From positions 200,010,565 to 200,074,564 of the forward strand of contig CM060988.1 of assembly GCA_030765065.1 (NCBI GenBank): 64,000 bases of DNA. Reading direction: 5' to 3'. A program made the translations under genes and the position numbers. Shown in pieces: positions 1 to 60,439 of the stretch. Each line of letters starts with the position of its first letter. Position 1 is the stretch's first letter. The notes below the pieces were generated by a model. The model was not told where the DNA came from. It searched no databases and saw only the letters and a list, made by a program, of their open reading frames with translations. Origin of the DNA: Deroplatys truncata (taxonomy: Eukaryota > Arthropoda > Insecta > Mantodea > Mantidae).

Positions 1-513
1 AATAGAGTATAAAGTATATCTTGGAAGTGGTTAATACCACAAAAAAATTCATTTGACATAAATTGCGCAAGATGTAAATTTTTTTTTTTTTTAATAGTAA
101 GATTTTGTCTATCTTACAGTTTACCAATTATAAAAAGCGGTTCAGGATAAAGAGGATTTAAGAGGCTAATCCCAGAAAATTCAGATACACATTTTATTTA
201 TCATGAAAATAGCTTAAAGATGTGGTTTTATAATCAAAATTGTTAAGGGCGTTTTTTTTAATGAAAAATTATCTATGTAAAGGGTAGTTTGTTGTAAGGG
301 ATTTTCTTCAAAAGCTTTGTGTCATATCCTTGGAAGATTCTGAACTTAAATACCAAGTTTCGTATTTTAACTGACTTTTCATTTTTGAGTGATGCTGTTT
401 ACAGACAGACACATACACAGATTTTTTTCTTTGTGTTCAGGGGGCTTCAAAACATGTACCTCTGACATTTTTAGTGGAACTCCTCTACTCACTGTGAGTA
501 CATAGTAGAGAAT
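1..513 (-). mobile_element. Family A repeat (Helentron-like), partial copy 1
   Basis: This is the minus-oriented 5' part of the family A repeat, cut by the window start. It ends in the family's 5' terminus, read here as catagtagaga at 501-511. It shares the tract around 390-470 that in other copies reads like tctgtgaacagcataactca, and it carries the poly-purine and lysine-rich blocks seen in the copies at 32.5, 33.3, 38.6, 50 and 55 kb. It is more diverged than the copies at 32-34 kb. No protein is encoded. The family assignment is by direct sequence similarity; the Helentron affiliation is inference. Confidence 0.75.
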
Positions 514-534
514 GCTAAAAGAGCATTCTTCACT

Positions 535-3884: not shown

Positions 3885-3915
3885 TAATATATATATATAT
3901 ACACACACACACACC
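3885..3915. repeat. (AT)n(AC)n compound microsatellite
   Basis: About eight AT units run directly into about seven AC units. Confidence 0.95.
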
Positions 3916-4213
3916 CCCTGAAGATCCATAATATGTATTAAACTATTCATCTTTTGTTGTAAAATATATTTATAATTATAATTACATATAGTGTCCAGTA
4001 TAAAAATATCAAATTTCATAAAAACATTACATGTTATGGGAAATCCGTTAACATTTTAGAAATCAGCATTTTTATATATAGCCAATGTTCATCAAATCCA
4101 GGTAACTTTTGCAGGACAGTGTATTCTATACCAGTTATATTATGCCCATAAACAGTTCAGTGATCAGCTTCACCTCATCCACAGCTCTGCTATTAAATTG
4201 AAAGATTTTCTTG

Positions 4214-4214
<1 letters not shown>

Positions 4215-4276
<62 letters not shown>
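4215..4276. repeat. (CT)n microsatellite
   Basis: About 30 uninterrupted CT dinucleotides. A perfect array of this length is normally length-polymorphic. Confidence 0.97.
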
Positions 4277-4279
<3 letters not shown>

Positions 4280-4447
4280 TAACTTACATGTCATATGTTT
4301 TGAAAACTGTGATTAAACTACTTTTTTGCAGTATGAATAAAAATTAAAACATCAGTAAAACGTTTAACAATACACAAACTTGTGTGCTCTTTATGCTTGT
4401 TATGGGATCGGAACCATACTGTTTTCTATGGTAACCGGATTATGTAC

Positions 4448-4449
4448 AA

Positions 4450-4518
<69 letters not shown>

Positions 4519-4519
4519 T
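4448..4519. repeat. (AAT)n microsatellite
   Basis: About 24 uninterrupted AAT/ATA triplets, ending in ataataattaat. Confidence 0.97.
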
Positions 4520-4938
4520 AATAGAACATTTTTATAACTTCTTAAATATGCATCCTATCAAAGTTTTGTAAATAACAAAACTAGTAACATAGATTATATT
4601 AATAATCCTTTTGTTGCATATATTGCATAGTAATGTGAGTGAAATTGAAATAACCCAGCTATGTACACATCAGAAATTATATATAACCTTTAGGAACAAT
4701 TGTCATTTAAAAGTTAACATATGAACTGTACCAATGTTTCATAACAAAAAAATATTTAACTGTTATGAGACCTACCATTGCATGTTGTGTTCATGTTGTT
4801 CAGCTGTCGTAGTTAGGGAAAGGAAGGGACCTCTCCTGGTTTTCTGCATAATGTTTTTCAAGTCTGGTTTATAGTTTCTTTGCTATTCTTCCCTTTAGGT
4901 GACACCATACAATGTTAAAGGTATATAGTTTTAGGATG

Positions 4939-5608
4939 ATATACTGAATGAAACAGTGTAAACCTTGTTTCCTACAATTTTGCTCCACTGACATGTACTC
5001 TTCCATGTTCCCTTCCCCTGAGTGGGTAATATACACCTTTGAATGATGATGTACAGGTCCTGTATAGTGTAATATCAGGTGCTAAAAGCACTCCTGTCAT
5101 GATAGATGCATGTATTTTTGTTCATCCTGAGAGACAGATTTAAATTGAAGGCTCCTCTTACCTATTTGTTGATAAGACTTCACAAGCATTCCAGTTGCAT
5201 CAACTTTGTTGCATCTATATTTGATTCATGTGGTTATAAAATGTACATTTGTCAATTCTCTTTGTATATATTGAGATAAATGATCTTATTAAATAAGGAA
5301 TTAGTTGGTGTTGCCCAACAACATATTCAGCAGCCAATAAGAGGTGACTAGTGCACATGACAGTTAAAAGATATGGGGCAAAGTTATATGGAACAGGGTT
5401 TAATAACACTTTTTTCCCCCCCATGAGCACCAGATCTGCCATAAATGCAAGAGTCCTGTCTTATATCCACACAATATACTGAATGAAACAGTGTAGTAAC
5501 AATTTTTCTTTCCTTTGAGTGCAACATTTGCCAAAAAAGTTATACTTCATGATCTACTGCAAGGATGCTGCCTTGCATTCAGCACAATATACTGAATGAA
5601 ACAGTGTA
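4939..5608 (+). repeat. Three exact copies of a 22-bp word
   Basis: The word starting ATATACTGAATGAAACAGTG and ending TA occurs three times in about 670 bp. The flanks differ, except that copies 2 and 3 share the four bases before it. The spacing is irregular, so this is not a simple tandem repeat. Confidence 0.85.
5500..5582 (+). repeat. Dispersed repeat, copy 1
   Basis: It shares gagtgcaacatttg and catgatctactgcaaggatg with 10735-10818. The two copies lie on either side of the LINE at 6.1-10.3 kb. Confidence 0.7.
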
Positions 5609-6139
5609 TATTCTATCCCAGACAAGAATGATCCTGTTGTAAACAACAAGGCAGAGTGAACTCAACCTGCCACATGTTTGATGTGCATGTGTACAGAAGC
5701 TGTACAAGTGTTAATTTCTTGACAGTAAGTCAAGTAAGACATTGCCAATAACTTATTAAAACTATGTATTATAGAATTAATCTTATCATGTAGTAGCATA
5801 AGGTTACGTTTTGGGGTTTCTTACTTAAGCATCACAAAACAATATGCGATCATTTGCTTCTCCCACATCTTAAGGTTTGCCTTAGCTGTGTTTTATTTCG
5901 ACAGATTGACAGGCCTGCTCCATGATGATAAGCTGACTGCTTTTTAATTGCATACAAATGTTCTGGCCTTGTGAAGTATACAAGAGATGTAGAAAATAGA
6001 GGCTTAAATATCAGAAGTGACTCAGCATTCACTCAAAACATACTTTACTCTGAGAGGGCTGTATGATATAGATAGTACAACTTATTATGCAAGTGTTTAA
6101 TTAATAATACAAAGTTAGGCTGCATATTGTTTAACAATA

Positions 6140-6605
6140 ATAACAAAGGGAGGTGGAGGACCTTAAAGGGAGGACAGAAAGGCTGCAGGATAAAATTCAG
6201 AAGTTTAATTTGGTCTTTACTGGGGTTGAAGAAAGAAGAGGAGTTTGGACCCTATTTGAGGTGGAGCATAAGCTTGAATTGAAACTGGGAGCATGAGAAA
6301 TAGCAGATGCTTTTCAAATTGGAAGACAAATAGGCAAGAGAGTGATAATAGTGAAGTTTACAACTATGAATATTGTATTCAAGATCTTACAGAGAGCAAA
6401 GAAACTTAAAGGAACAAATATCTTCATTAATGAGGACCTGTCAAGGACTGAGACGGAAATTAGGAGAAACCCTGTACGAGAAACGAAGGGAACAAGAGTG
6501 AATGGAAAGAATGTGTATATGCAGCTCTGGATTGATGGCAAGATGATTACTGCAGGCAAAAAGGAGACAAGTTGCATTACAAATCTCACCTGGAGGATAT
6601 AAGTC
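6140..6605 (+). pseudogene. LINE ORF1-like protein remnant
   Basis: A coiled-coil-like start (LKGRTERLQDKIQKF) leads into a segment with KRVIIVKFTTMNIVFKILQ, LKGTNIFINEDLS and GKNVYMQLWIDGKMI. The IVKF...KGTNIFINEDLS arrangement is the RRM-like and C-terminal nucleic-acid-binding part typical of CR1/L2/L1-type ORF1 proteins, which coat the element's RNA. The clear open part is 6342-6602. The sequence downstream to 7134 is non-homologous linker with no clean frame. Confidence 0.65.
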
Positions 6606-7134
6606 AGCAAGCTGATGTAATGGAAGGTGGAAGTCCAAGGGATGGTTCGCCATGCGCAAATATTCTGAGGCAACAAGGAGACAGGATACATTTTGCTGAG
6701 GCATGTGGAAACTTCAGGGCCATATGAGAGAAGAAGCGGGACCTCTTGGGGTAGCATGAGGGAACACCAAGGTCAAACATCACATCAAAGTATGCCGGTA
6801 CACTAAGGTCAGGCGATGACATCACAGCAAAGCTTGTGGGAACACTAAGGTTAAATGAACAGGGAGACAATGACATCATAACGGAGGATAATTTTTCCGG
6901 AAAGGCAGTGGATGCAGAGATTCAACAGCTGGCAAGAAGGGAGAAAGAATGCAGGAGAATAAGTTGTCACTACAGAATCAAGTATTGTGCCAACACCACA
7001 TGGAAGCATTTTGGAACTGAACAGTGCAGTGCAGTGCAGCACAGCGACAAGAGTTCATAAGGGGAGGACATGAACTCAGAAGTAGAAAGAAATTGCAGGA
7101 GTTTACAGAAAGAGTGAGGTCAGAATAGGGTGAA

Positions 7135-8002
7135 ATGGGTGGAATAGGGGCTGTGAGACTGGGTTTCTGGAATTGTGATGGTTTGAAAAGGAGCATGTCT
7201 TTGGGTTTTATTGGCCTGTTTGTAAAAAAGGTGCATCTATTAGCAATGGCTGAGACATGGGTAGAAGATAGGGAGGAGATTAAAATTGTAGGCTGGCAAT
7301 TTATTGGAAAAAAGGGATTGAGAAGGAATATTAAGGGAAGGGCTTCAGGAGGATTGGGGTTATTATATAGAAGTGAGTGGAAGGGCATGGTTAAAGAACG
7401 AATCTCTAGGATGAAGGGAGTAATGTGGATAATGCTGAAGAAGTTTACAGTATGCTTAGGATTAGTTTATAATCCACTCAGAAATTCACAGCTTCATAGC
7501 CCAGATCTTTTCCATCAACTAGGAAATGAAATGGAAGAAATTAAACAGAAACTCCCTAGCAGAAGTTTTGATAAAGGGGATTTTAACGTAACAATTGGAA
7601 ATCTGTAAGCAAAAGACTGTCTTATAGTGGATGATTTATTTATAGAGAAAGAATGATCATGTTATACGGATGAATAGAAATAAACAAGTGTATGAAGAGG
7701 GCATTAACTTTGTTCAGTTTTGCAAAAGCAATGACCTGGTGACACTGAATGGCTGTTGGGGTGAAGACAGGAATGGGGAATTCACACTTGTTAGTGTTGG
7801 CGATCAAAGTGTTACAGACTTTGCTGTTTGCAGTTGGGAGTCACTAACTGCTGTGACAAATTTTAAAATTATGAACTTTGTTAGTAATAGTGTTCATTTT
7901 CCCATAGTGGTAGAGTGGAAGTGCGGAATTGGTGATAGGATGACTCCACAATCAAATAAAAGAGAAGTGGGGGAGAAAGTTAGTAGGTATAGATGGAACT
8001 AG
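7135..8002 (+). pseudogene. LINE ORF2 endonuclease domain remnant
   Basis: Open segments at 7135-7608 and 7670-8002 carry the AP-endonuclease signatures of LINE ORF2: LGFWNCDGLKRS at the N-terminus, LLAMAETWVED with the catalytic E, GLGLLYRSE, GLVYNP, GDFNVTIGN with the D/N pair, and later VTDFAVCSW with NSVHFPIVVEW, where the usual SDH is altered. The domain would nick target DNA to prime reverse transcription. Frameshifts near 7608 and a stop after 8002 break it. Confidence 0.8.
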
Positions 8003-8419
8003 GATTATGCTGGAGACTATTCAGTGTTGAAGTCCTCAATGGCAAGGATGTGCATTCATGGGATTGCTTGGTTTATTAAGTTAGATAAATATGAAGGACA
8101 TTATTTCTCTTAGCATTTATGTTGAAATGGGCTGGGAATGGTATGCTTGTATCTAGTAGGAATAACACTAAAAGATATAATGGATGATTTGACAAAGCAT
8201 GCAGAGTTATGAGGAGTTTTGTGTAAACTTGCCATAATTTGGTGGAGAGAGTATGCTCGACCCGAAGATAGAGAATGAAGGGCAAAGTACAAAAAGTTAT
8301 TAGACAGCAAAAAAGGAGAATGGGGAAGAAAAAAGGCCTTGGAAATAAAGGCAAAAATTGAATCTGTGAGGGCACAACAGGTGTGGAAAGTTATAAGGAA
8401 TTGTACGAAAGATAGAGCT

Positions 8420-9320
8420 GAGAGACCTGAAATTATGCCGCAGCAATGAGAGTTATTTCAAGTGTTTATTTTAAATTGGAGAAGAAGGGTGGAATTAGAG
8501 CTGAGGTGTAATGAAGCCCTGGATAGAGAATTTTCATGTGAAGAAGTATTAAAGCAGGTTCGGAAGGGCAAGAAGAATAAGGCATAGGTAAAGATGGATT
8601 GCCGTGCCAGGTGCAAATTAGAAAGTTTGACTAGATTATTGAAATTAATTAAGAGTAGTAAGAGGATACCTAAGAGTTGGTGAACAGCTATTATTCACCC
8701 CATTTTTAAGGGAAAAGGATGTGCTAAAAATCCATGTAATTACAGGAGTAATGCCCTCTTATCAAACTTTGATAACAATTTTACGGGGATTTTAAGAGAG
8801 AGTATTAATGTCTGGATAGAAGAAAACCCCCACTTTCAATCAGGATTTAGAGGAGGTCGAAGGATGGCTGATAATGTATTTGTTACCCAAATGATGATAG
8901 ATAAGTAGCAAACAAGCAGGGTAAGTTATATGCAGCATTTATCGATTTGGAGAAAGCATGTGACATAAGTTAATAGAAAAGCTTTATGGTATAAACTATG
9001 GCACAAGGGAATGAGTAGGGAGATGATTATTTGGCTTCAAGAATTGAACAAGGAGAATATGTTCTGTGTGAAATGTGGAGAAGATTATGTGACCGAGGAA
9101 GTGACTCAAGTGCGGAGGCTCAGGCAAGAATGTAAGGGAGGTTACAGCAAGTTAATATACAAAAACCAATAATAAATAATTTGAAAATTCCTGGCTTGCT
9201 TTATGCTGATGATTTAGTGGTAGCTTCCTTTTCAGTAATAGGATTAAAACATGCATTATTAGAAATTATGAGGTATTGCATGGAATGGGATCTCAAAGTG
9301 AATCAGGAGAAAATAAAGAT
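8420..9320 (+). pseudogene. LINE ORF2 reverse transcriptase remnant
   Basis: Frames on the plus strand read, in order: a PKSW-like palm entry followed by TAIIHPIFKGKG, NYRSNALLSNF, HFQSGFRGGRRMADN, KLYAAFIDLEKACD, and GLLYADDLVVAS with the YADD catalytic box at about 9200-9212. Multiple stops and indels are present. The enzyme would copy the element's RNA at the nicked target. Confidence 0.8.
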
Positions 9321-10160
9321 ATAATATTTTAAAAGGGAAATAAGTTGGGGAGAGAGATACAGATTGTGAAGGAATTTTCATATTTAGGAATGGTATTGAG
9401 TTCCTCTGGGCAGTGGGAGAAGCCAAAGCAAGTAGCATTAACCAAGGGGTTACTGGCCTTGAAGCTAGTCAATAAATGTTTGTTGCACCAGATATGAAGG
9501 TAAACTGGTTTGAGAGAATATATAGGGCATTGCTCAAAGTGAGATGGGCATATAGTATACAAGTATGGGGAATAGAGGAAAGCTGGAAAAGTATGGATAG
9601 GATACTTAGCAGGTTTTGTGAGAATATGCTGGGAATTCCACAAAGTGCAGCGAATGAAATCGGGAGGGTAGGTGTTAGAGGGTAGATAATAGAGTTCTTA
9701 AATACTGGTTCAGAATTTAACAGTTGCCAGAGGACTCTGTGTTGAAAGAATGATTCTGGGTTAGAGGATATTTATTGGGCTCACAAAGATGGGAAAGAGT
9801 TAACTAGGAATGGAATGTGGCTGAGAAGAGTGGAGTTGGAGAGACATTTCTGGAAATTGGTCAAAATTAGTTTTTAAGGATACAGATATTGCATTCTACA
9901 GTGAGGGAAATGAGGTCACTAATGTTTTATTGGAAGACAAGAAAGGTTGCTACATTAGTATGTGTAATAAGCAAGAGAGGGAGGGACTGGCATGGTTCAG
10001 ATTGAGGATATGGAACTTAAGGGGGGTTAGGGACAGGCAATATGTGGTAAATGGTTAAAATTAAACAAACAAATGGCAGTGAGAAAAATTTTTAGTGACA
10101 AAATGCAAACCAGGAAGCTTGGAAAGTTTTTGTATAGGGTGATGAAAAAATGATTATGGT
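9321..10160 (+). pseudogene. LINE ORF2 C-terminal region remnant
   Basis: After the RT comes FSYLGMVLSSSGQWEKPKQV and then an open segment at 9476-9685 with FERIYRALLKVRWAYSIQVW and RILSRFCENMLGIPQSA, the post-RT region common in CR1/jockey-type LINEs. Later frames contain an equivalent of CNKQEREGLAWFRLRIWNL, which matches the fragment at 47245-47300. Several stops are present. Confidence 0.7.
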
Positions 10161-10345: not shown

Positions 10346-11021
10346 GGTAACAATAATAAGTTAATAGTATATAACTGTGCCTGTCTTTGCTTTAATCTGT
10401 GCCTCTATGCTTATGTATATGTCTGTTGTAAGCATTCCTTTCAGAATTTATGAACTGGAACACATCTGCAGTGTAGTGCAGGATACAGAGAAATGAAAGT
10501 AAGCATTTGTAGACTTTTCTCTCTCGAACTAATTTGCGCTGGGCAGTGGTTAGAAACTGCTTTGAATGCTGTACTTCTTAGAAGCAGTTATTGTGTGAAA
10601 ACAAATAAAAGAAAACACCCATGAATTTCTGTCCACCAATCAGTGGCTTAAAAGCATCCCATCTGACTGTCTCTCTCTTTCTTCCCTCCTATATGTTTAC
10701 AAGAGGATCATTCTTGGTTGAGACAGATTATAATAAAAGTTTTTTCCCTTGAGTGCAACATTTGAGTGCAATATATATTTCATGATCTACTGCAAGGATG
10801 CTTCCCTGCATTCAGTACATGGCCTCTCTGGTTTACCATTAACATTGTACTACAATTCACTTGGTTTTATATAAATGCTTGGTGATAAACCAGAGGTTGT
10901 TACATATCTTCTGTTTCTTTTACGAGATCTCTTAGCAGTGCAAACATGGATATACATACCTCTTTCACTCTGTATATGCATAGTTGAATTTTGTTATTAA
11001 TATTATATTCTTTTTCCACAG
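10346..11021. other. Non-coding stretch upstream of the zinc-finger gene
   Basis: It contains the second copy of the dispersed repeat (10735-10818). It ends in a pyrimidine tract and AG (ttctttttccacag, 11008-11021) that would serve as the splice acceptor before the first coding exon. Promoter elements could not be identified. Confidence 0.5.
10735..10818 (+). repeat. Dispersed repeat, copy 2
   Basis: Homologous to 5500-5582. The preceding 10694-10715 also resembles the reverse complement of 5612-5640 (the aggatcattctt core), so the two regions are related by a rearrangement. Confidence 0.6.
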
Positions 11022-11484: not shown

Positions 11485-11767
11485 TGTGGTATAGTGGTTA
11501 CCATGCTAACCTGTAATTCCCGAGGTCACGGGTTCAAACCTGGCGGAAGGTGATGGATTTTTACAGGTGTAAAAATCCTTAGCATGGCTTCCTTTGGAAT
11601 GGAAGTAAAGCTGGTGGTCCCTTGTCATAGATTTACGGCACGTAAAATAACCTCAATGCTGATAGAGGCCTCAGTAAAATTTCCGATCTTTCACGCCCAA
11701 TATAGAATGGGACGCTAAGGACCACAGCAGTTAAAAAGCGTCCATAAATAAAACTCAATTTAATTTT
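11485..11767 (+). mobile_element. tRNA-derived SINE (SINE-1), full copy in intron 1
   Basis: The tRNA-like head has an A box around tagtggttaccatgcta and a B box gggttcaaacc. It is followed by the family body (atccttagcatggcttcctt ... gaatgggacgctaaggacca) and the tail cataaataaaactcaattt. It is flanked by a perfect 12-bp target duplication, tacactatttgc, at 11473-11484 and 11768-11779. It is inserted in the zinc-finger gene's first intron and is one of eight SINE-1 copies in the window. Confidence 0.92.
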
Positions 11768-11779
11768 TACACTATTTGC

Positions 11780-17529: not shown

Positions 17530-18300
17530 TTTGTATCATCTCTACTACTTTCCTATAGTAAGTAAGGGAAGTATTGCATTTGACGCAAAAATCTGATCTT
17601 TGGAAGCTTTCTGAATCCAAAAAGAAAAGCATTTTCAGAAAAACATCCATGTACGAGTCTATGAGCAGTGTAACTCTTCCAAAGATGTAACACAAAAATT
17701 ATCAAGAAAATCTTCCCACCTCATACTACCTTTACATGCAAAAATGATTTTTATATTTATAAATTTCTTAAAAAATTGCCATACATTTAAGATATTTACA
17801 TGGCAAATAAAACGTATATCTAGAATTTTCTGGGAATACCATATGAACTTCTATTCAGAAGGAGTTTTGTGTAATTATAACTTGTAAACCATAAGAGTAG
17901 ACAAATACTTAACTTACAAAAAAGTGTGATCTTTTTAAAATATGCAACTTACTTCAAATAGATTTTTTTTGGCATTAGGCATTTCTGAGATGTGTGTTAG
18001 TATTGGTTTGAATTTTTAAATAGTTTTGTCATTTTCTTAGTATTTGTCATGGAAAGGGTATGGAATTATAAGACTAGCATATAGCAATCTACTCATAAAC
18101 ATCTATCACTTCTGTTTCCTGTATTCCCCTGTACCTACCACAAAATGTGTAATTAAATCATTTCTGCAAAGGTTTATCTCAACATGAAGTGCATAGAAAA
18201 ATATACTCTCATAAGAATGGTTTTTAGAAGCTGTATAAGAGTACAGGATAGTAAATAAAGAAAGCCATGTGAATGTAACATCAGAGTTTGCACTTGAAAC
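17530..18300 (+). mobile_element. Family A repeat, copy 2 (intron 2)
   Basis: It starts at tctctactactttcctatagtaag and runs through the family's usual blocks (ttctgaatccaaaaagaaaa, tttacatgcaaaaatg, attttctgggaata). It ends near aagccatgtgaatgtaacatcagag, the family's 3' end. It directly abuts the mariner. It is diverged relative to the 32-34 kb copies. Confidence 0.8.
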
Positions 18301-18618: not shown

Positions 18619-20293
18619 ATTATACCCAGAAGGTGTCTCCAAAGATAACTCACCTTCACTCTATGATGAACAGTTAGGAAAAGATATGAGCTTCAATATA
18701 AAGAAGGGTGCTCATGAATGCGAAATAGCCACAAGATGCAAAACTGAAGAGAGGCACTTAATGGAAAATGTGCTTTACTCAGAACAACCTGATAGTGGAA
18801 AAATAGACAGTGTGAATTTCTGCTCGAAACAGATTTGTTTCACTGAGCAGAATATCACAAATGGACAGAATATCTATAAGAATAATTGCGCTATTAAGTC
18901 AGTCTTGGCTAGAAATAACTTGAATCATAAGTGCAGAAATATCTGCAACTGTGACATTTGTGAGAAGAGCTATGGTTGTGAATCACATTTAAAACATGTA
19001 ATTTTTGAAGGTGAAAAGTCATACAAGCATGACATTTGTCAGGAGGATTTTGTCCAGTTATCACACCTGAGAACTCATAATTTGTCTCATGAGGGCCACA
19101 AGCCTCACAAGTGTGACATTTGTAAAAAGAATTTTGCCCACTTGTCAAGTCTGAAAGCGCATAATTTAATTCATAAGGGTATAAAGCCATTTAAGTGTGA
19201 CATTTGTGAAAAGGATTTTATGCGTCTGTCATATTTGAAAATCCATAAATTGATTCATGTGGACCAAAAGCCACACAAGTGCGAAATTTGTGAGAAGGAT
19301 TTTATCCGTTTGTCACATTTGAAAGCCCATTATTTAATACATGAAGGCAATAAACCACATAGGTGTGATATTTGTGGGAAACATTTTACCCAGTTCTCAA
19401 ACCTGAAAGCACATAAATTGATTCATGAGGGTAAGAAACTCCACAAATGTGAAATTTGCGAGAAGGGTTTTATCCGGTTATCAAATTTGAAAGCACACAT
19501 AGTTATACATGAGAGCAAAAAGCCACATAAGTGTGCAGTTTGTGAGAAGAGTTTTAAGAATTTATCTAATTTGAAAGCACATAATTTGATTCATGAAGGC
19601 AAGAAGCCACACAAATGTGAAATTTGTGACAAAAGCTTTATTCGCTTATCACATTTGAGAATACATAAAATGAGTCATGAAAATAAAAAACCATACAAGT
19701 GTGAAACTTGTGAGAAAGGTTTTACAAGGTTATCACGTTTGAAGTTACATAAGTTAATTCATGAGACCAGAAATTCTCACAAGTGTAATACATGTGAAAA
19801 AGTTTTTATTCATATGTCAAGTTTGAAAATACACAATTTATTACATAATGGCAAAATTCCATACAAGTGTGATGTTTGTGAGAAATATTTTACCCGGTTG
19901 TCAAGTTTGAAATCACATAAATTGATCCATGAAGACAAAAAGCCACACATATGTGAAATTTGTGATAAAGGTTTTATTCGGTTTTCAGAATTGAAAATAC
20001 ATAAATTGAATCATGAGGGCAAAAAACCATACAGGTGTGAAATTTGTGAGAAATGTTTTATTCGGTTATCACATTTGAAAACACATTACTTGATACATGA
20101 AGGCAAAAAGCTACACAAGTGTGAAGTATGTCATAAAGGATTTATCCAGTTTTCAAATTTGAAAGCACACAGGCTTATTCATGAAAGCAAAATGACTCAC
20201 AAATGCAATGTTTGTCACAAGGGTTTTAGCCATTTGTCACGTTTAAGAAGACATAACTTAATACATGAGGCAAAGAAAGTCACACGGATGTGA
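18619..20293 (+). CDS. C2H2 zinc-finger gene, coding exon 3 (finger array)
   Basis: This exon encodes residues 132-689. After LYPEGVSKDNSPSLYDEQLG and a linker rich in Cys and Asn, the array begins. Two degenerate fingers at about 243-264 and 269-289 are followed by 14 intact C2H2 fingers at about 297-681, each C-x2-C-x12-H-x3-H, with an exact 28-residue period and linkers such as HEGKKPHKC. The second degenerate finger has His in place of the first Cys (KHDIC). Helix positions -1, 3 and 6 are mostly R/Q/H, N/S/H and A/I. The protein is most likely a nuclear, sequence-specific DNA-binding regulator; its target is unknown. The frame ends shortly after the last finger, and decayed fingers continue past the stop. 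Confidence 0.92.
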
Positions 20294-21649: not shown

Positions 21650-21939
21650 TTTTTTTTTTATTATTTTTATAGATGCTGTTTAACTCTATGGTTCTTAGTG
21701 TCCCATTCTATATTGGACATGAAAGAACAAATTTTGCTCAGAGGCCTCTTAATCAGGCTTGAGGTTCTTTTACGTACCATAAATCTATGGCACAGGGCCA
21801 CCGGCTGTACTTCCCTCCCGAAGGAAGCCATGCTAAGAATTTTAAGCTGGAAAAAATGCATTGCCCTCCACTGAGTTTGACTTTGGGAACCAAAAGCTAG
21901 CATGGTACCCCTAGACCACGAAGGACAATCCATGGCCTG
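21650..21939 (-). mobile_element. SINE-1, minus copy (dimer, member 1)
   Basis: In minus orientation it runs from the tRNA-like head at 21939 (catggattgtccttcgtggt) through the body (aagccatgctaagaatttt, tcccattctatattggacat on the plus strand) to the tail near 21650. The B box is mutated to gggttcccaaagtcaaact-like sequence. Confidence 0.85.
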
Positions 21940-22222
21940 TTAAATTAAATTGAGTTGTATTTATGACACGATTCTTTAACTGCTGTGGTCTTTTAGTGTC
22001 CCATTCTATATTGGGCATGAAAGACTGGTATTTTGCTCAGAGGTTTCTTTTACATGCTGTAAATCTATGACTGGAACCACCAGCTTTACTTCCCTTCTCA
22101 AGGAAGCCATGCTAAGGATTTTTACACCCAAAAAAATCCATCAACCTTCGCCGGGTTTGAACCCGTAACCTCAGAAACCAGAGGCTAGCATGGTAACCAT
22201 GGTTATACTCCATGGCCGTGAT
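21940..22222 (-). mobile_element. SINE-1, minus copy (dimer, member 2)
   Basis: The tail ttaaattaaattgagttgta abuts the head of the first copy. The plus strand carries gggtttgaacccgtaacctc, the intact B box read in reverse, and the head ends near 22220 (catggttatactccatggcc). The two copies are in the same orientation with no spacer. Confidence 0.88.
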
Positions 22223-32477: not shown

Positions 32478-33317
32478 TACTTTCTCTACTACGTATAGTA
32501 AGTAGGAGAAGTATTGTATTCCACCCAAAAATTCGATATCAAGATTTCACCGGAAATACATGTTTTGAGACCCCCTGAATCCAAAAAAAACATTTTTGGA
32601 AACATGTCTGTCTGTGTGTGTGTCTGTGAACAAAATAACTCAAAAACGAACAGTCGGATAGACACCAAACTTGGTATTTAGGTTCAGTATCTTCCAGAGA
32701 TGCGATACGAAGGTTTTCAAGAAAATCCCCCCACCCCAGATTACCCTTTACATGGAACATTTTTCGAAAATTTTAATTTTCTCAAAAATGACTAACGATT
32801 TTGATTAAAATATCATATGTTTAAGATGATTTCATGTCAAATGAAATGTATATCTCGAATTTTCTGGGAATGTCTCCAAAAGTATTCTTCATTATGAACG
32901 ACTTTTGCATAACTCGTAAACCATAAGAGATAGACAAAATTTTACTACACAAAAAATGTAGATAGCATTAAAATACACAATTTATGTTATATACATTTTT
33001 TTTATTGAGTGAACCATTTTCGAGATATTGCTTGTTATTCCCTTAAATTTTCCAATACTTATACTTTTTCTCACATTTGTTATTCATTTTTTTTGGTCCT
33101 GGTAATGCAAAGAGAATGGAATACTCCACATAGCAACCACCTCTTAAAATATTTGACTATCGCTTAAAGCCTAGCAATTTCCCTTGCATCTACAAGAAAA
33201 TTAGCAATAATATTAACATCTTGATTAAAATAAAGGATATGGAGAATAAGTGTTTGTAAAAATAGTTTATACAAGAGTAGAGAATGTCATGTGAGTGTAA
33301 CACATCAGAATTTTTTT
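32478..33317 (+). mobile_element. Family A repeat, copy 3 (tandem member 1)
   Basis: Near-complete copy. The 5' end is ACTTTCTCTACT-ACGTATAGTAAG. The 3' end is agagtagagaatgtcatgtg ... cacatcagaattttt, with a hairpin (ATGTG/CACAT, 7-nt loop) after the inverted copy of the 5' motif. It inserted in a TTTT site with no target duplication, as shown by the empty site in unit 3. The internal part reads like tctgtgaacaaaataactca; it is non-coding. Confidence 0.88.
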
Positions 33318-34237
33318 ACTTTCTGTTCTACGTATAGTAAGCAAAGGAAGTATTGTATTCCACCTAAAAGTACAATATCGAGATTTCACCGGAAATATAT
33401 GTTTTGAGACCCCCTGAATCCAAAAAAAAAAAATTTTTTGGAAACATGTCCATGTGTGTGTCTGTGAACAGCATAACTCAGAAACGAACAGTTGGATAAA
33501 GACCAAACTTGGTATTTATGTTCAGTATCTTCCAGAGATGCGACACAAAGGTTTTTAAGAAAATTCCCCCACCCCAGATTATCTTTTACATGGAACATTT
33601 TTCGAAAATTTTAATTTTCTCAAAAATGACTAACAATTTTGATTAAAATATCATATATTTAAGATACTTTCATGACAAATAAAATGTATATCTCAAATTT
33701 TCTGGGAATGTCTCCAAAAGTATTCTTCATTGTGAACGACTTTTACATAATGATGATGATGATATGCGGTTTAAGGGCGCTAAACTGCTAAGGTCATCAG
33801 CGCCCGACTTTTACATAACTGGCAAACCATAAGAGATAGACAAAATTTTACTACACAAAAAATGTAGATCACATTAAAATACACAATTTATGTCATATAC
33901 ATTTTTTTTGTTGAGTGAAGCATTTTCAAGACATTGCTTGTTATTCCCTTAAATTTTCCAATACTTATACTTTTTCTCAAATGGGAATTCTTTATTCATT
34001 TTTTTTTTTTTTTTTTTTGTCCTGGTAATGCAAAGAGAATGGAATACTCCACATAGCAAGCAGCTTTTAAAATATTTGACTATCGCTTAAAGCCTAGCAA
34101 TTCCTCTTGCATCTATAAAAAAATTAACAATAAGATTAACATCTCGATTAACATGAAACATATGGAGAATAAGCGTTTGTAAAAATAGTTTGTACAAGAG
34201 TAGAGAAAGTCATGTGAGTGTAACATATCAGATTTTT
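33318..34237 (+). mobile_element. Family A repeat, copy 4 (tandem member 2)
   Basis: It follows copy 3 head-to-tail with no spacer (cagaatttttttactttctg) and is about as long. It contains a 54-bp insertion (33751-33804) that copy 3 lacks. The 3' end is gagaaagtcatgtgagtgta acatatcagattttt. Copies 3 and 4 are highly similar, suggesting recent tandem insertion or duplication. Confidence 0.88.
33751..33804 (-). mobile_element. 54-bp LINE/SINE 3'-end insertion with 14-bp target duplication
   Basis: It is flanked by cgacttttacataa on both sides (33737-33750 and 33805-33818); copy 3 shows the uninterrupted site. In minus orientation it reads as a 7-bp hairpin (gggcgct ... agcgccc) followed by an (ATC)n tail. 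It is probably a very short 5'-truncated retrotransposon 3' end. Confidence 0.85.
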
Positions 34238-37290: not shown

Positions 37291-37767
37291 TTACACTATA
37301 TGCCTAACAACCTCTGTCATTTTATGATCTGCTTAGATCCTTTAAAAAATTATGGATTTCATCAAAAGTCGGTAACATAAATATTCTGTATACACACAGG
37401 GTGGCCCACATGAAGTTTTACAGGTGAATATCTCTTAAATAGAACAAACCAAATGCCAAGAATTCCAAATCTTATTGGAACAAAGGGCTTTCCAAATTGT
37501 GATATGCAAAATATTTCCATTTGGCCCCTTATTGGGCACAGGGGCCAACCTCAGAATTTTAAATGGAACCATGAAATTTTGTTTTTATATAAACCCAATA
37601 AACTAAGGAAATTTTATTAAAACTTTTTTTTCTTTTAAAATTAATCGTTGAGCTGGGATGTTTTTATTGAAGTCTACAGTAGTAGGAAATAGTACTAACA
37701 TGCCATATCACAATTTGGAAAGGCCCTTACTCCAATAAGATTTGAAATTCTTGGCATTAGTCTTCTA

Positions 37768-39470
37768 TTTTCTCTACCATGTACATAGTAGATAGAGAAA
37801 GTATTGCAATCCACCCAAAAATTTGATACTGAGATTTCACCAGAAATACATGTTTTGAGGCCCCCCGAATCCAAAAAAGCACTTTTAGAAAAAAGGTCCA
37901 TGTATATGTCTGTGAACAGCATAACTCAAAAACGAAAAGTTGATAAGTACCAAATTTGGTATTTAAGTTCAGTAACTTCCAAGAATGCGACCTAAGTTTT
38001 CAGAAAATCCCACCACTCGAAACTACCCATTACATGGAACATTTTTTTAGAAGTTTAATTTTCTAAAAAATGGCCCTAACGATTTTGATTAAAACACCAT
38101 ATATTAAAGATATCTACATTATAAACAAAATGTTAACCTTAATTTTCTGGGAATAGCACGTGAAGTCCTCTTTATTTGGAAGACATTTTGTATAATCTTG
38201 TGTAGCTTGTAAAAGTTAAGCGATAGACGAAAATGTAGTACACATAAAATGTAGATCTCTTTAAAAAATATAATTTATTTCAAGTAAGTTTTGTTTTTGT
38301 GGCATAAGCAATTTTGAGATATCCGTCATTAATGGTTTAAAATGTTCATTACTTCCTCATTCTCTTAAAGTGCTGTCAATATTCACTTGTTTCTTACTAT
38401 TGCATGGAAACAGTATGGAATTTTAAGGCCAGCGTGTAGTGTCCGGTTCTTAATCATTTGACTATCCATGCTTTTCTTTGTATCTATGACAAAGTGTGTG
38501 ATGTAGCTATTTCTGCAAAGGCTTATTTGGATTAAAATGTAGATAGAAAAAAAAATCTGATGTGTTGCGCTCAGACGACTTTCTCTACTCTTGTACAAAC
38601 TAGTTTTACAAACGCATATTCTCCATGTATGTCATGTTAATCGAGATGTTAATCTTATTGCTAATTTTCTTGTAGGTGCAAGGAAATATGGTAGGCTTTA
38701 AGCGATAGTCAAATCTTTTAAGAGCTGGTTGCTATGTGGAGCATTCCATTCTCTTTGCATGTCCAGGACATAAAAAAACGAATAACAAATTCCCATTTGA
38801 GAAAAAGTATTGGAAAATTCAAACAAATAATAAAGAATATCTTGGAAATGGTTCATTCCACAAAAAAATGTATATGATATAAATTGTGTGTTTTAATGAG
38901 GTCTACATTTTTTGTGTAGTAAAATTTTGTCTATCTCTTACGGTTTACCAGTTATGTGAAATCATTCAGAATGAAGGAGGCTTTTGGGGACATTACCAGA
39001 AAATTCAAGATATGTGTTTCATTTGCGATAAAAACATCTTAAACATGACATTTTAATCCAAATCATTTGAGCCATTTTTGAGAATATCAAAATTTTCGAA
39101 AAATGTTCCATGTAAAGGGTAGTTTGGGGTGGGCGGATTTTCTTGAAAATCTTCATGTCACATCCTTGGAAGATAGTAAACTCAAGTACCAAGTTTGTTA
39201 TTTATCCGACTTTTCGTTTTTTAAGTTATGCTGTTCACAGACAGACACACACACATGGACATGTTTCAAAAAATACTTTATTTGGATTCAGGGCACCTCA
39301 AAACATGTATTTCCAATTAATCATGATATCAAATTTTTGGGTGGCATGCAATACTTCCGCTACTTACTATGCATAGTAGAGAAAGTAATAAGCTTTAGTA
39401 AAAATAATTTGTGTACTTGCTAATATGGGTAGGGGTAGAGAAAGTCATGTGAATGTGCCATCAGATTTTT
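37768..39470 (+). mobile_element. Family A repeat, copy 5 (outer, split)
   Basis: The 5' part is 37768-38550 (ttctctaccatgtacatagt start). The 3' tail is 39388-39470 (ataagctttagtaaaaataa ... gtagagaaagtcatgtgaat ... tcagattttt). The interruption point matches a continuous stretch in the copy at 55.2 kb (gacagaaaaataaggtttag), proving that the inner copy inserted later. Confidence 0.85.
38551..39387 (-). mobile_element. Family A repeat, copy 6 (inner, inverted)
   Basis: A complete minus-oriented copy, from aaatctgatgtgttgcgctc (3' end) to catagtagagaaagta (5' end), inserted in an A-run of the outer copy without target duplication. Together the two copies form an inverted pair with arms of about 0.75 kb. 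Confidence 0.88.
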
Positions 39471-45592: not shown

Positions 45593-45855
45593 TTTGTCCT
45601 CCATGGTCTAAAGCTATCATGCTAGCCTCTGGAAGGCAATGGATTTTTTGGGGTAAAATGCTTAGCATGGCTTCCTTTGGAAGGGAAGTAAAGCTGGTGG
45701 TCCCGTGTCATAGATTTATGACACGTAAACGAACCTCTAGCCTGATAAAGAGGCCTCTGAGCAAAATTTCCGGTCTATCACACCCAGTGGGATAGAATGG
45801 GATGCTAAGGACCTTAATATTAAAGAGCGTCCATAAATAAAACTTAATTGTTTTA
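45593..45855 (+). mobile_element. SINE-1, plus copy with internal deletion
   Basis: It is flanked by a 12-bp target duplication actaaccaactc (45581-45592 and 45856-45867). The B-box region between ctagcctctgg and aaggcaatgg is deleted. The body is well preserved (gtgtcatagatttatgacac, ctgataaagaggcctctgag). Confidence 0.92.
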
Positions 45856-49759: not shown

Positions 49760-51245
49760 AAGCATGAAATAAAAAGAAGAATAGGATTAGGTAAAGTGAC
49801 TATGAGCAAATTATAGAAGTCATGAAGGACTCAGGCATATCCAGGAATACTAAAATAACAAAATTGTTAAGACCATGGTATTCCCAGTCATATTATATGG
49901 TAGTGAAAGTTGGGCTCTTTGTAATGGAGATAAAAAAAATCTGATGTGTTACACTCACATGACTTTCTCTACTCTTGTACAAACTATTTATACAAACGCT
50001 TATTCTCCATCTACTTTATGTTAATCGAGATAAACATTTGCAGACTCTATCTTATTGCTAATTTTCTTGTAGATGTAAGAGGAATATATATTTACAAGGG
50101 CAATATACAAATACAGTAGCCTTTAAGCACATACATATCTCTTAATAGCTGGTTGCTAGGTGCAGCACCATTCGCTTTGCCACAGATTAATATTCTTTGC
50201 ATATCGAAGACAAAAAAATGAATAACGACTTCCCATTTGAGAAAATAAGTATTGAAAAATTTAAGGGAATAACAAGTAATATCTCGAAAATGGTTCACTC
50301 AACAAAAAAAATGTATATGACCCAAATTGTGTATTTTAACGCGATCTACATTTTTTGTGTAGTAAAATTTTGTCTATCTCTTATGGTTTACCAGTTATGC
50401 AAAAGTCGTTCACAATGAAGAATACTTTTGGAGACATTCCCAGAAAATTCAAGATATACATTTTATTTGTCATAAAAATATCTTAAACATATGATATTTT
50501 AATCAAAATCGTTAGAGCCATTTTTGAGAAAATTAAAATTTTCGAAAAATCTTCCATGTAAAGGGTACTCTGGGGTGGGGGGATTTTCTTGAAAACCTTC
50601 GTGTCACATCCTTGGAAGATACTGAACCCAAATACCAAGTTTGGTGTTTATCCGACTGTTCGTTTCTGAGTTATGCTGTTCACAGACACACACACAGACA
50701 TGTTTCCAAAAATGTTTTTTTTGGATACAGGGGGTCTCAAAACATGTATTTCCGGTGAAATCTCGGTATCGAAATTTTGGGTGGAATACAATACTTCCCC
50801 TACTTACTATACGTAGTAGAGAAAGTAAAAATACTACGTTTTTTCTAATTGTGGACCTGGAAGAAAACAATACAAGTGTTTTGGAAAGAAAAAAGAACAA
50901 ATGCATCAATATTGGAAGCAGTAAATCCAGCCAGCTCCTTGTAAGCAATTACTACAAAAATTAGACAAATTTCAGTCATCTAATTAAAGATCCATGTCCA
51001 TGGAAAAGGATTTGATGATATGCATCACAGAAGTAGCAGGCAACAAGGTAGGCGCAGACTAAGATGGATGGACAGAGCCAAAGACACTCTTCAAATGGAA
51101 TGGCTTGCAGAATCCCGATTTCAATCGAGAGATGCTGTGCAACAGGCCGTGCAGAGCATGCCAAGGACCATCAGGCTGTCAATCTAAATTGCTGTGCATG
51201 TTCCAACAGATTTTCCCGTGGTTGTTCACAATCTAAGGACCTGCT
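49760..51245 (+). mobile_element. RTE/BovB-like LINE C-terminal remnant, split by family A
   Basis: The left part (49760-49935) reads RRIGLGKVTMSKL, then KIVKTMVFPVILYGSESWAL. The right part (50828-51245) reads KRTNASILEAVNPASSL, then QQGRRRLRWMDRAKDTLQME and FQSRDAVQQAVQS. The motifs V(K)TMVFPV..YG.ESW and GRRRLRWMD are typical of the post-RT end of RTE/BovB-type LINEs. The 893-bp family A copy sits between them. Confidence 0.7.
49936..50827 (-). mobile_element. Family A repeat, copy 7
   Basis: A minus-oriented complete copy. The 3' end, tctgatgtgttacactcaca tgactttctctactc, carries the inverted motif and hairpin. The 5' end is acgtagtagagaaagta at 50811-50827. It inserted in an A-rich site of the LINE remnant. 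It is close in sequence to copies 3 and 4. Confidence 0.88.
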
Positions 51246-52744: not shown

Positions 52745-53030
52745 TCCTCCGTGTCTAAGGGTACTATCCTCTAGTTCCCGAGGTCGCAGATTTAAACCTG
52801 GTGAAGAGTGATGGATTTTTTTGGGTGTAAAAATCCTTAACATGGTTTCCTTAGGAAGGTAAGTAAAGCCGGTGGTCCCATGTTGTAGATTTACTGCATG
52901 TAAAAGAACCTCAAGCCTGATAAATAGGTCTCTGAGCAAAATTTTTGGTGTTTAACACCCAATGTAGAATGGGACGCTAAGAACCACAGCAGTTAAAGAG
53001 CATCCATAAATAACATTCAATTCAATTTTT
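52745..53030 (+). mobile_element. SINE-1, plus copy
   Basis: A diverged head (ctctagttcccgaggtcgca, B-box region agatttaaacctgg) with a full body (atccttaacatggtttcctt, ctgataaataggtctctgag, gaatgggacgctaagaacca) and the tail aacattcaattcaattttt. The target duplication is unclear. Confidence 0.88.
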
Positions 53031-54320: not shown

Positions 54321-54475
54321 TTCGTGTACTATTCAACAGTATGATACTCACATGATCGGTACCTTAACTTGCATTCTTTCTCACTGCTGACTCATTAAAA
54401 CTCATTTTATAATCCAGTAGAACCACATTAGAATCTTGGTTGTGCCAAACACTTGCCTGTTTTTTACTTTCTCTA

Positions 54476-55322
54476 CCACACACATAGTAGATAGAGAAGG
54501 AATTACATTCCACCCAAAAACTTCTGTACCAATATTTCACCAGAAATACATGTTTTGAGGTGCATGAGTCCAGAAAAGCATTTTTAGAAAAAAAAATTCG
54601 TCTGTGTGTGTGACTTTGAACAGCATAAGTTAAAAAAAAATTCAGTTAAACACCAAATTTGGTATTTAGATTCAGTACTTTCTGAAGATGCAACATGAAG
54701 ATTTTCAAGCAACCCCCCCCCCCAAAAACCATCCTTTGCATGGAAGAGTTTTTGAAGCTTTTGACTTTCTAAAAAATGCCTCTTAACGGTTTTAATTAAA
54801 ATACCATATATCAATAATATTTACAAGACAAATGAAATGTATATCTTGAATTTTTTGGGAAAAGCCTCTTTATTTGGAAGGAATTTTGTATGATCTTCTA
54901 TAACTGTTAAACGTTAAGCAATAGATGAAAACGTACTACACAAGAAATCTAGATCTCTTTGAACACACAGTGTATTTCATATACGTTTTTTGTGGCATCG
55001 GCTACTTCCAAGATATCCATTATTAATGCTTTAATTGTTCATTACCTGGTCATTCTTTAAAGTCCTTTCAACATTCAGTTGTTTCTCACAATGTCATGGA
55101 AAGAGAGTTGAATTTTAAGGCCAGCATATAGCATCCAGTACATTTGATATTGCCGTTCCCTTTGTATCTTTAATGAAATGTGTAATGTAGCTATTTCTTC
55201 AAATGTTTATTTGGATTAAAATGAAGTAGACAGAAAAATAAGGTTTAGTAAGAATAGTTTGTATACCCACTATAAGTGATAAAGGATAGAAAAAGTCTTG
55301 TTAATGTAGCACATCAGATTGT
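54476..55322 (+). mobile_element. Family A repeat, copy 8 (tandem member)
   Basis: The 5' end is actttctctaccacacacat at 54476. It ends in gatagaaaaagtcttgttaa tgtagcacatcagattg. It is more diverged than copies 3 and 4, and its 3' hairpin is weakened. Confidence 0.85.
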
Positions 55323-56195
55323 TTACTTTCTCTAACATGCATACAGTAGGTAGAGAAGGTATTGCATTTCACCTAAAAGTTCAATACCAAGATTTCACTG
55401 GAAGTACATGTTTTGAGACCCCCTCAATCCAAAAAAAGTATTTCTAGAAGAATATCCATGTATGTGTGTGTATTTGAAGAGCACAACTCAAAAATGAAAA
55501 GTTGTATAAATACCAAACTTGGTATTTAGGTTCAGTACCTTCCAAAGATGTGACATGATTCTTAAAAAAGTCCCCACCCCAAACTACCTTTTACATGGAA
55601 GATTTTTCTAAAGTTTTTATTTTGTAAAAATGGCTCTAGCAATTTTGATTAAAATATCTTATATTAAAGGTATTTATATGACAAATAAAATGCATGTCTT
55701 GAAGTTTCTGGGAATATTCTACAAATTCCTCTTCATTTGGAAGGAATTTTGTATAATCTTGTATAACTGGTAAACCTTAAGCGATAGACGAAAATGTACT
55801 ACACAAAAAATACAGATCTTTTTAAAACACACAGTTTGTTTCAAATAAGTTTTTTTGCATAAGCTATTTCTGGGATATCCATTATTAATAGTTTGAGTTG
55901 TTCATTACTTGGCCATTCTCTTAAAGTCCTGTGAACATTCAGTTGTTTCTCGCGATGTTATGGAAACAGTATGGAATTTTAAGGCCAGCATATAGCGTCC
56001 AGTTGTTAAACATTTGACTGTTGCTGTTCTCTTTGTAACAAATTGTGTAATGTAGCTGTTTCTGCAAAGATCTGTTTGTATTAAAATGTAGTAGATAGAA
56101 AAAATAAGCTTTGGTAAGAGTGGTTTGTATATCCATAATAAATAATAGAGGGTAGAGAAGGTCATGTGAATGTATCACAATAGATTTTGTTTTTC
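55323..56195 (+). mobile_element. Family A repeat, copy 9 (tandem member)
   Basis: It follows copy 8 head-to-tail (cagattgtttactttctctaa) and ends in gtagagaaggtcatgtgaat gtatcacaatagatttt. Confidence 0.85.
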
Positions 56196-56668: not shown

Positions 56669-57890
56669 GGTAATGTTGCTCCAGAGGTCGACGTGTCATG
56701 GCGGGTGCTGCGCAATGTCAGGCAGGCTACCCTGTAGAAGAAAACATCGCTAAAATTCCACGAATGTGTGGCATTTGGCTCTTTAAATGCCACAAAGTTG
56801 TTTAAGTACTTCCGGTTATGTATTCTGTCACAATGTATTGAATTGGTTATGTATTCTGGCGTGATTTTGTCAACAGTCAATATGGACAACTTACACATCG
56901 TTGCGGAGAATGAGATCTTAAATAATGACGCTGTTGTAATGGAAAATTGGGACATGGAACAGCTTGCAGAAGTGCTGGCAAGCTTAGGAGGCAGTTCAGC
57001 ACTTCTCAGGAGCTCTTCAACTCATACTTGCATGAGTTCATGTACATGAACAGCTGTCCCAATCAGAGAGTGTTTCAGAATTTTCTTGTGACACTCTCCA
57101 AGAATTATCCTGCGGCATAACATCTTCGCAGCTCTCTTTTGGTTCATATTCTCCCTCAGAACTTCCTTTTCATCTTTCTTTTCTTCCAAAGTTTTATATT
57201 TCTTCATTGTCTTAAATGCATTGATGCAAAACAGCCCTTATTAAGGCTAACAATTGCATCGTGAAAGAGCAGATATGTTCTTGGACATAATTATAGTAGC
57301 ATTCATTATTATTTAGTTGTATTACATTTGACTATTGTGTCATGGTAATTATTTAATTCTGTGACATCTGTTTACTGCTATGCGGTAATTATTTAGTTAT
57401 ATTACATTTACTTACTGTTGCACGGTAATTATTCAGTTGAAACATTAAATTGAATTTTATTTATGGACACACTTTAACTGCAGTGGTCCTTAGCGTCCCA
57501 TTCTATGTTGGGTGTGAAAGAGTGGTAATTTTGCTCAGGGGCCTCTTTATCAGGCTTGAGGTTCTTTACATTTATTTAGTAGTGCAGAAGTGCCAATGCT
57601 CATTACTAAATGACACACATTAGACAATAGCAATAATATTTTTATTGCTTCACAGTTATTATTAAATTTTATTGTATCTATTTACTGTTTCATGCTTAAT
57701 ATTTAGTTTTATTGCATTTATTCACTTTTTTGCGCTTTTCTATTACGACAGCATATAACAATTCACAACAATACCAAACTATTTCTGGTTTTACTAACGC
57801 AACAGCGTTTTTTCTGTTTAACAGTTGGTACCTGACATTGCATATTTACATCGGCCGCCATGACACATCGACCTCTGGAGCAACATTACC
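56669..57890. mobile_element. Element with long terminal inverted repeats
   Basis: The left end GGTAATGTTGCTCCAGAGG-TCGACGTGTCATGGCGG and the right end (reverse complement) agree over about 36 bp with one mismatch, and further inside share GCAATGTCAGG. The 1.2-kb interior contains a SINE-1 fragment and two frames of 90-100 residues with no recognised domain. No clean target duplication was found. The superfamily is not assigned; Mutator-like or another long-TIR type is possible. Confidence 0.7.
57447..57570 (-). mobile_element. SINE-1, 3' half only, minus
   Basis: The plus strand reads ttttatttatggacacactt, tccttagcgtcccattctat, gtgtgaaagagtgg and ggcctctttatcaggcttga, then the copy stops at ttctttaca. 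It is 5'-truncated and lies inside the long-TIR element. Confidence 0.85.
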
Positions 57891-59998: not shown

Positions 59999-60263
59999 AT
60001 GCTAGCCTTTAGTTCCCAGGTCACAAGTTCAAACCTGGCAGAGGGCGATGGATATTTTTGGTTATAAAAATCCTTAGCATGGTTTCCTTTTGAAGGGAAG
60101 TAAAGCTGGTGGTCCCATGTCGTAGACTTACGGCATGTAAAAGAACCTCAAGCCTGATACAGAGACCTTTGAGCAAAATTTCCAGTCTTTCATACCCAAT
60201 ATAGAATGGGATGCTAATTACCACAGCAGTTACAGAGCGTCCATAAATAAAACTCAATTTATT
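59999..60263 (+). mobile_element. SINE-1, plus copy with 13-bp target duplication
   Basis: It is flanked by tctccgaccacat (59986-59998) and tctccaaccacat (60264-60276), one mismatch in 13. The copy starts at atgctagcc, so the first ~25 bp of the tRNA head are missing. The B box acaagttcaaacctgg and the body are intact. Confidence 0.93.
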
Positions 60264-60439
60264 TCTCCAACCACATGACTGCATCCACCAGTATTTCCTT
60301 TCCCAGCATACTGTGTGTCTCTGTCTTTAATTCTTTGGTGTGAATGTCTCATTCTTGAAGCTTTTAAAATAAATAAATTAAAATGTAAGTAAACAAGGTG
60401 TAGGAAAACTCATTTACACCCTTCACTAAAGTACATAGT

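Follow-up and report, generated by a model that had tools for sequence, protein, structure and literature searches.

Family A of Deroplatys truncata, a probable HINE family with a Helentron partner in the same genome, and its clustering at T-runs

The closest described systems are the Helentrons and the protein-less elements associated with them, the HINEs. As set out in parts of PMC4067079, HINE-Mo and Helentron-Mo of the mite Metaseiulus occidentalis exhibit subterminal inverted repeats (subTIRs) of 12–15 bp and a 3' palindrome; HINE-Mo occupies T-rich sites without any change to the target and carries a variable number of terminal Ts, and its partner Helentron-Mo encodes Rep, PIF1 and endonuclease domains, mite Helentrons having an RPA gene in addition. 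The same source describes DINE-1 of Drosophila as having 13-bp subTIRs, an inverse arm shortly after the first of them, a 3' stem-loop, a short microsatellite and a preference for TT. In the portions of PMC5148889 on FoHeli chimeras of Fusarium oxysporum, several 5' termini are combined with one 3' terminus, and the route put forward for these Fusarium Helitrons is self-insertion, after which the element is nicked at the leftmost 5' end and mobilised as far as the first 3' end. VTD-bearing Helentrons, as presented in part of PMC9741609, unite a herpes tegument-like deubiquitinase with a C-terminal endonuclease. The repeat described here, family A, and a Helentron of the same genome recall all four systems: the mite elements in their subTIRs, a putative 3' hairpin, T-rich unaltered sites, variable Ts and partner domains; DINE-1 in its subTIRs, inverse arm, a putative stem-loop, microsatellite and TT preference, a likeness at the level of description; FoHeli in its several 5' ends before a single 3' end, open to the same explanation; and the VTD-bearing Helentrons in the two domains named.

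Family A was recognised in a window of 64 kb, the whole stretch of DNA that was analysed. When 26 genomic copies were combined into a profile, it matched 12 stretches of the window (E up to 6e-5), which amount to ten copies, since a nested insert divides C2 and C4 interrupts C3. The preliminary description had likewise counted ten copies and had given them a common 12-bp 5' motif, ACTTTCTCTACT; the number holds, and the motif is common to them only when mismatches are allowed, as it occurs exactly just six times. Three of these exact occurrences lie at 5' ends (32479, 39375 on the minus strand and 50815 on the minus strand), and the other three are the inverse, located at 3' ends (34199 on the minus strand, 38578 and 49962). 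With up to two mismatches, the motif is found 27 times in the window, compared with a mean of 7.6 and a maximum of 13 in 100 shuffles. The copies and their parts are as follows.

1..515, minus strand: old copy C0, truncated at the window edge
17535..18285, plus strand: old copy C8, 80%
32479..33309, plus strand: copy C1, 95.8% to the consensus, upstream partner in a head-to-tail pair
32479..32490, plus strand: 5' subTIR of C1, ACTTTCTCTACT, exact
32501..32512, plus strand: imperfect inverse of the 5' motif in C1, AGTAGGAGAAGT, second arm of the 5' hairpin
33276..33287, plus strand: 3' subTIR of C1, AGTAGAGAATGT, differing from the inverse at one position
33289..33305, plus strand: 3' hairpin of C1, ATGTG and CACAT with a 7-nt loop
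33318..34232, plus strand: copy C2, 94.6% to the consensus, downstream partner of C1
33751..33804, plus strand: insert of 54 bp within C2, bounded by two copies of CGACTTTTACATAA, a 14-bp target duplication, at 33737-33750 and 33805-33818
34199-34210: 3' subTIR of C2, exact; the hairpin of C2 is disrupted by one change
37767..38545, plus strand: left part of the older copy C3, 80% to the consensus, interrupted by C4
38556..39386, minus strand: copy C4, 88.8%, in a T-run within C3, with the empty site known from C6 and C7
39389..39465, plus strand: right remainder of C3, including its 3' end
49940..50826, minus strand: copy C5, 95.4%, both motifs exact and hairpin intact
54466..55318, plus strand: copy C6, 78.5%, upstream partner in the second head-to-tail pair
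55325..56184, plus strand: copy C7, 79.1%, downstream partner of C6 and 81.6% to C6
56187..56412, plus strand: 3' fragment (consensus 612-830) that begins just past the element's internal T-run and has no 5' end

Both head-to-tail pairs reported earlier, C1–C2 at 32.5–34.2 kb and C6–C7 at 54.5–56.4 kb, are present, and the C1–C2 junction reads CATCAGAATTTTTTTACTTTC. In this pair, the one examined for coding capacity, the longest overlapping open reading frame comprises 79 aa. The 54-bp insert in C2 is a short element of another kind, which makes a target duplication, in contrast to family A. The window further holds a 535-aa open frame (18686-20293, plus strand) that by eye resembles an array of C2H2 zinc fingers repeating every 84 bp, and a second dispersed repeat family, present on both strands and 60–89% alike, at 11495-11769, 21729-22199, 45644-45789, 52764-53030, 57436-57567 and 60015-60271.

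The consensus of family A comprises 833 bp up to CAGA, with a mean divergence of 3.5% among the 26 genomic copies. It opens with ACTTTCTCTACT and carries the inverse of this motif close to its 3' end, ahead of a small hairpin, CAGA and Ts; a TG run within it forms a short microsatellite. The 12-bp 5' subTIR is exact in the consensus and its inverse, AGTAGAGAAAGT, spans positions 800-811, leaving 22 nt up to the last base of CAGA (27 counting five Ts), whereas the corresponding distance in HINE-Mo is 38–60 bp in the part of PMC4067079 that gives it. The 3' hairpin of the preliminary description (ATGTG, 7 nt, CACAT) appears in the consensus, with a 5-bp stem and a 7-nt loop, and in 22 of the 26 younger genomic copies (it is broken in the other four), but in the window it is intact at only two of eight 3' ends (C1 and C5). 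Its folding energy at three 3' ends was no more stable than that of shuffles (z from +0.6 to -1.0), and inspection by eye of the 3' ends listed revealed no clear compensatory double changes in the stem, the picture being one of conservation with some broken stems. The 5' end has an additional feature that had been overlooked, an imperfect inverse 10 bp inward (ACTTTCTCTACT-10 nt-AGTAGGAGAAGT); the resulting hairpin reached z -2.4 against shuffles in C5 and only -0.9 in C1. The 5' repeat is not itself palindromic, unlike that of HINE-Mo (PMC4067079, in part), and has a separate inverse arm, as described for DINE-1.

Searches of the genome (4.29 Gb in 818 contigs) revealed 190,268 exact 5' ends (ACTTTCTCTACTACG, non-G 16 bases upstream), against 8 for the reversed pattern, and 181,527 exact 3' ends (GAGAAAGT-18 nt-CAGATTTT), against 2 for the control. 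The ~190,000 exact 5' ends set family A apart from DINE-1 as portrayed in the sections of PMC4067079 concerned. If most ends belong to copies of ~0.8 kb, we estimate a total on the order of 0.15 Gb, a figure that leaves out mutated ends. Near the start of contig C1, family A 3' ends recur about every 3,409 bp across 100 kb, interrupted by a few gaps (20515-119365); there, each unit of a satellite (L115, C1:20001-24500) carries one full family A copy, and two neighbouring units exhibit 99.3% identity over the 1,091 bp that they share. A single exact 3'-end pattern found no match in viral contigs, and a single exact 5'-end pattern found none in the viral and bacterial contig collections, both being narrow patterns as opposed to homology searches. 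Our literature searches found no published description naming family A.

Insertion sites were examined in a set of 30 copies, namely loci L001 (C1 of the window) to L028, taken from a genome search with C1 as query (4,178 first-look candidates, 40 of them scored), supplemented by C4 and C5 of the window. In 29 of the 30 the two ends could be read, with T-rich flanks on either side, and every 5' flank terminates in at least two Ts. The proposed lack of target duplication was upheld: a shared flank of at least 5 nt beyond pure Ts was found in one of 29 copies (CTTTTT, L009), compared with a mean of 3.9 under random pairing. The nesting of C4 in C3 allows an insertion within the window to be checked on two empty sites. 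C4 is flanked by AAGCTTATT and TTTTTTTTTCTATCTAC, the uninterrupted site in C7 reads AAGCTTATTTTTTCTATCTAC, and that of C6 is nearly identical with one T fewer; by both, the insertion added only the element plus Ts.

Filled sites carry about five Ts more than empty ones. At the internal site, the host T-run has a median of 8 (23 copies) compared with 11–15 in five filled sites; at a second site, the values are 7 (16 copies) and 12, and for C4 in C3 they are 5–6 and 11. Agreement with this rule is poorer for the nested copy L018, in which 10 or 11 Ts compare with a median of 7 in the host. In 81 distinct 5' flanks, taken from the first 100 listed, which all fall on contig C1 and hence are not a random sample, the closing run of Ts is exactly five long in 50 cases, six in 15 and two in 7. 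The extra ~5 Ts are either carried by the element or duplicated; the sites with only two 5' Ts (7/81), the ones at which a duplication of TTTTT alone can be told from five carried Ts, favour carriage by the element.

Head-to-tail junctions with a spacer of 0–15 nt number 8,282 across the genome (control 0). The spacer is exactly TTTTT (CAGA-TTTTT-ACTTTC) in 3,829 of them, and none of the 100 junctions listed had a spacer shorter than five bases. Head-to-head junctions account for 18 sites (36 when strands are counted separately), in which an A-run usually abuts a T-run; the ratio of 8,282 to 18 is approximate, the head-to-head pattern consisting of two 15-mers and the head-to-tail pattern of a 9-mer plus a 15-mer. 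This orientation bias is explained by the own-strand T-runs that each copy offers at both ends and inside.

Tandem pairs might instead be concatemers formed in a single event, by bypass of the 3' stop signal or by repeated copying of a circle. The precision of the junctions would suit such an origin, as would one of the 17 usable pairs, L130, whose copies are 98.5% identical to each other and only 96% to the consensus, and the L121 pair, which likewise ranks first in its row. Nevertheless, five Ts are the commonest run before 5' ends in general, and neighbours are hardly more alike than strangers: their identity averages 93.1%, against 92.8% for copies of different junctions (17 usable of 28 pairs), a mean that 290 of 2,000 random pairings equal or exceed. 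Moreover, C1 and C2 share 5 derived changes (of 35 and 45), other window pairs sharing 2–8. This counter-evidence, from sets in which 8 of 12 and 17 of 28 pairs were usable, applies to most pairs, and we consider concatemers an unlikely general source. Because neighbours resemble each other so little more than strangers do, most head-to-tail pairs look like repeated insertions into the T-runs of older copies. The tandem pairs invoked as a hallmark at the outset do exist, but self-targeting of T-runs accounts for them better than a single concatemeric event does. With each copy ~4% from the consensus, L130 stands as an exception, possibly a true concatemer or a local duplication.

A RepHel protein associated with the family A termini was sought in the genome, and the search found full-length Helentrons whose 5' sequence is that of family A and whose 3' boundary is likewise CACATCAGA-T. 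As had been stated, the partner is absent from the window, in which tblastn with the Helentron frame gave nothing at E 1e-3. A search with PF14214 yielded 152 matches in the genome; among those listed, at least 18 have open frames exceeding 2,000 codons, the longest of 2,543. Rep motif 2 reads EFQMRGSPHEH in 10/10 loci of the Helentron group (L049-L058), S in place of L at this motif being a Helentron signature according to part of PMC4067079. The motif RGLPHAH was readable in 10/20 loci of a canonical Helitron group (L029-L048), whose members coexist in this genome, many with stop codons.

One Helentron locus, read over 14.6 kb, gave a size of ~10.2 kb, with the 5' end ACTTTCTCTACTACGTATAGTAAGTAGGGGAAGTATTG at 351, the 3' end GTAGAGAAAGTTATGTGAATGTAACACATCAGA at 10476-10508 and a frame of 2,441 codons at 2249-9571. 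Domains were read in one copy, labelled C4 but distinct from window copy C4. Its frame contains a Herpes_teg_N-type deubiquitinase (E 1.7e-10), DUF6570, Helitron_like_N (Rep, E 1.7e-28), a PIF1 helicase (E 3.3e-23) and an AP-type endonuclease (Exo_endo_phos_2, PF14529, E 1.2e-5, at 25.6 bits just under the curated cut-off of 27.4). Rep motif 2 with S (GSPHxH), a PIF1 helicase and a C-terminal AP endonuclease are joined in one frame, as expected of a Helentron. Differing from the VTD-bearing Helentrons as described in part of PMC9741609, this frame has a long charged repeat region, encoded by 63-bp DNA repeats, between deubiquitinase and Rep. The 63-bp coding repeat (21 charged aa) lies ahead of Rep in L060 and other loci. 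Its number may vary among Helentron copies, because several listed frame lengths (2261, 2324, 2345, 2387 and 2408 codons) are multiples of 21 apart; others (2343, 2372, 2416, 2441 and 2543 codons) do not fit.

Positions 1-698 of the family A consensus exhibit 87% identity with the Helentron 5' region, and positions 801-833 exhibit 94% with its 3' end. The subTIRs agree at 12/12 positions on the 5' side and at 11/12 on the 3' side (GTAGAGAAAGT in the Helentron), 11 identical bp being the minimum for one family in the rules that part of PMC4067079 provides. Over the last 60 bp, aligned from anchored ends, identity is only 63%, and by the same rules the two are thus one family but different subfamilies; the direct parent of family A may be another Helentron, outside those seen. 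Homology among Helentrons stops exactly at CAGATTTT in 35/39 other scored copies and at most three bases further in 37/39. A canonical Helitron (5' TC, 3' CTRR, insertion at A/T) is ruled out by the ends ACTTTC and CAGA-T and by the T-run sites, and a Helitron2 without endonuclease by the endonuclease domain of the partner.

The Helentron query for the 5' ends came from a copy with two 5' ends and began 71 bp upstream of the inner one; 40 of 18,122 candidates were scored. Nearly full matches numbered 30: 23 ran from the first base of the query, six started at the Ts that precede the inner 5' end, and one started 33 bases inside it. The two-headed share of 23/30 may be inflated because the query was itself two-headed and only 40 of 18,122 candidates were scored. 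Five of the six single-headed copies had no family A match in the 170–203 bp upstream, and the sixth, L067, follows the 3' end of an older copy.

These starts bear on the idea that Helentron and family A have ends in common only through Helentrons landing beside or inside family A copies. Many Helentrons do sit at T-runs within such copies, and the extra 5' block stems from this nesting; yet the inner-5' starts (6/30), five of them in flanks free of family A and one behind an older copy, together with the stops at the shared 3' end (35/39), indicate that the shared ends are the Helentron's own, and make that idea very improbable. Least probable of all, a non-autonomous cut-and-paste element (MITE) with TTTTT as target duplication would account for the ~5 extra Ts of filled sites and the five-T majority of 5' flanks, but not for the asymmetric ends (the motif at the very 5' end, its inverse set back 22 nt inward of CAGA at the 3' end), for C4 and other copies with only TT on the 5' side and 7–9 Ts on the 3' side, or for a shared-end partner of the Rep/helicase type.

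Flank tests and the shared-end partner both support the Helentron-like (HINE/DINE-1 type) assignment originally proposed. With a rough probability of 95%, judged from these comparisons of sequence, family A is a HINE of the DINE-1 type, for which a ~10.2-kb Helentron of the same genome, or a close relative, would supply the Rep/helicase/endonuclease protein acting on the shared ends. Family A is a new family within a known type of element, and its interest lies in its abundance, its long-frame partner and the clustering test.

Both the outer 5' flank and the 3' flank were read in 16 of the 23 two-headed copies. All 16 have a further 5' end ~626–686 bp upstream, a longer piece than the typically <200 bp of FoHeli in the part of PMC5148889 that reports it, and wherever the inner joint falls inside the sequence read, it is GTTATTCATTTT, the element's internal T-run. 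Three compounds have no family A match in either outer flank (C5:172.78M, C1:248.26M and C9:66.06M, given as contig and position), three lie within an opposite-strand family A-like copy (C13:170.85M, C4:69.43M and C10:86.28M (old, ~70%)), and five lie between the halves of a same-strand family A copy (C9:126.06M, C7:306.96M, C13:112.36M, C1:33.20M and C5:94.82M). Three more (C1:320.4M, C4:193.7M and C4:200.7M) end at the Helentron 3' end in differing surroundings. C10:233.56M and C13:75.85M are ambiguous, with same-strand family A after the 3' end and the matching half absent before. These settings indicate that the compound was mobilised in one piece on several occasions at least.

Within the final 330 bp, the mean difference is 0.4% among five two-headed copies and 1.7% among five single-headed copies. 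In the 3.5-kb Rep region, three two-headed copies differ by 0.7–0.9% and five single-headed copies by 0.7–2.7%, two of these by only 0.7%. The two-headed set is thus more uniform and probably younger, while not clearly the sole recent one. It is the commonest near-full-length form among the Helentron copies examined (30), a prominence that distinguishes it from FoHeli as covered in the relevant part of PMC5148889. Our literature searches found no published two-headed Helentron in an animal.

By analogy with known Helitron biology, the Rep domain would nick at the 5' end, and the helicase would peel one strand off up to a 3' signal composed of the subTIR, CAGA and Ts, to which the small hairpin may also belong. 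The resulting single strand, linear or circularised, would then be integrated at a T-run that the endonuclease may have opened; a circular intermediate would carry a CAGATTTTT-ACTTTC joint. Same-strand T-runs at both ends of a copy would let later copies land alongside in the same direction, giving rise to head-to-tail clusters. If a Helentron entered a T-run within a HINE and a later transposition ran from the outer 5' end as far as the 3' end of the Helentron itself, a two-headed Helentron would result. On balance, we lean towards a reading in which the most widely spread, and probably most recent, Helentron lineage is this two-headed form, a HINE 5' block of ~630–690 bp plus the whole 10.2-kb element, mobilised from its outer 5' end to its own 3' end, and in which the family's T-runs, terminal and internal, became landing pads for same-orientation copies beside or within thousands of copies.

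A very abundant protein-less repeat is thereby tied to a long-frame Helentron in the same genome, which makes end recognition, T-run targeting and two-headed transposition directly testable. The junctions provide a quantitative case that head-to-tail clusters can arise via target choice, beyond bypass of the stop signal alone. If both 5' ends work, self-insertion would give Helentrons a lasting means of acquiring new heads.
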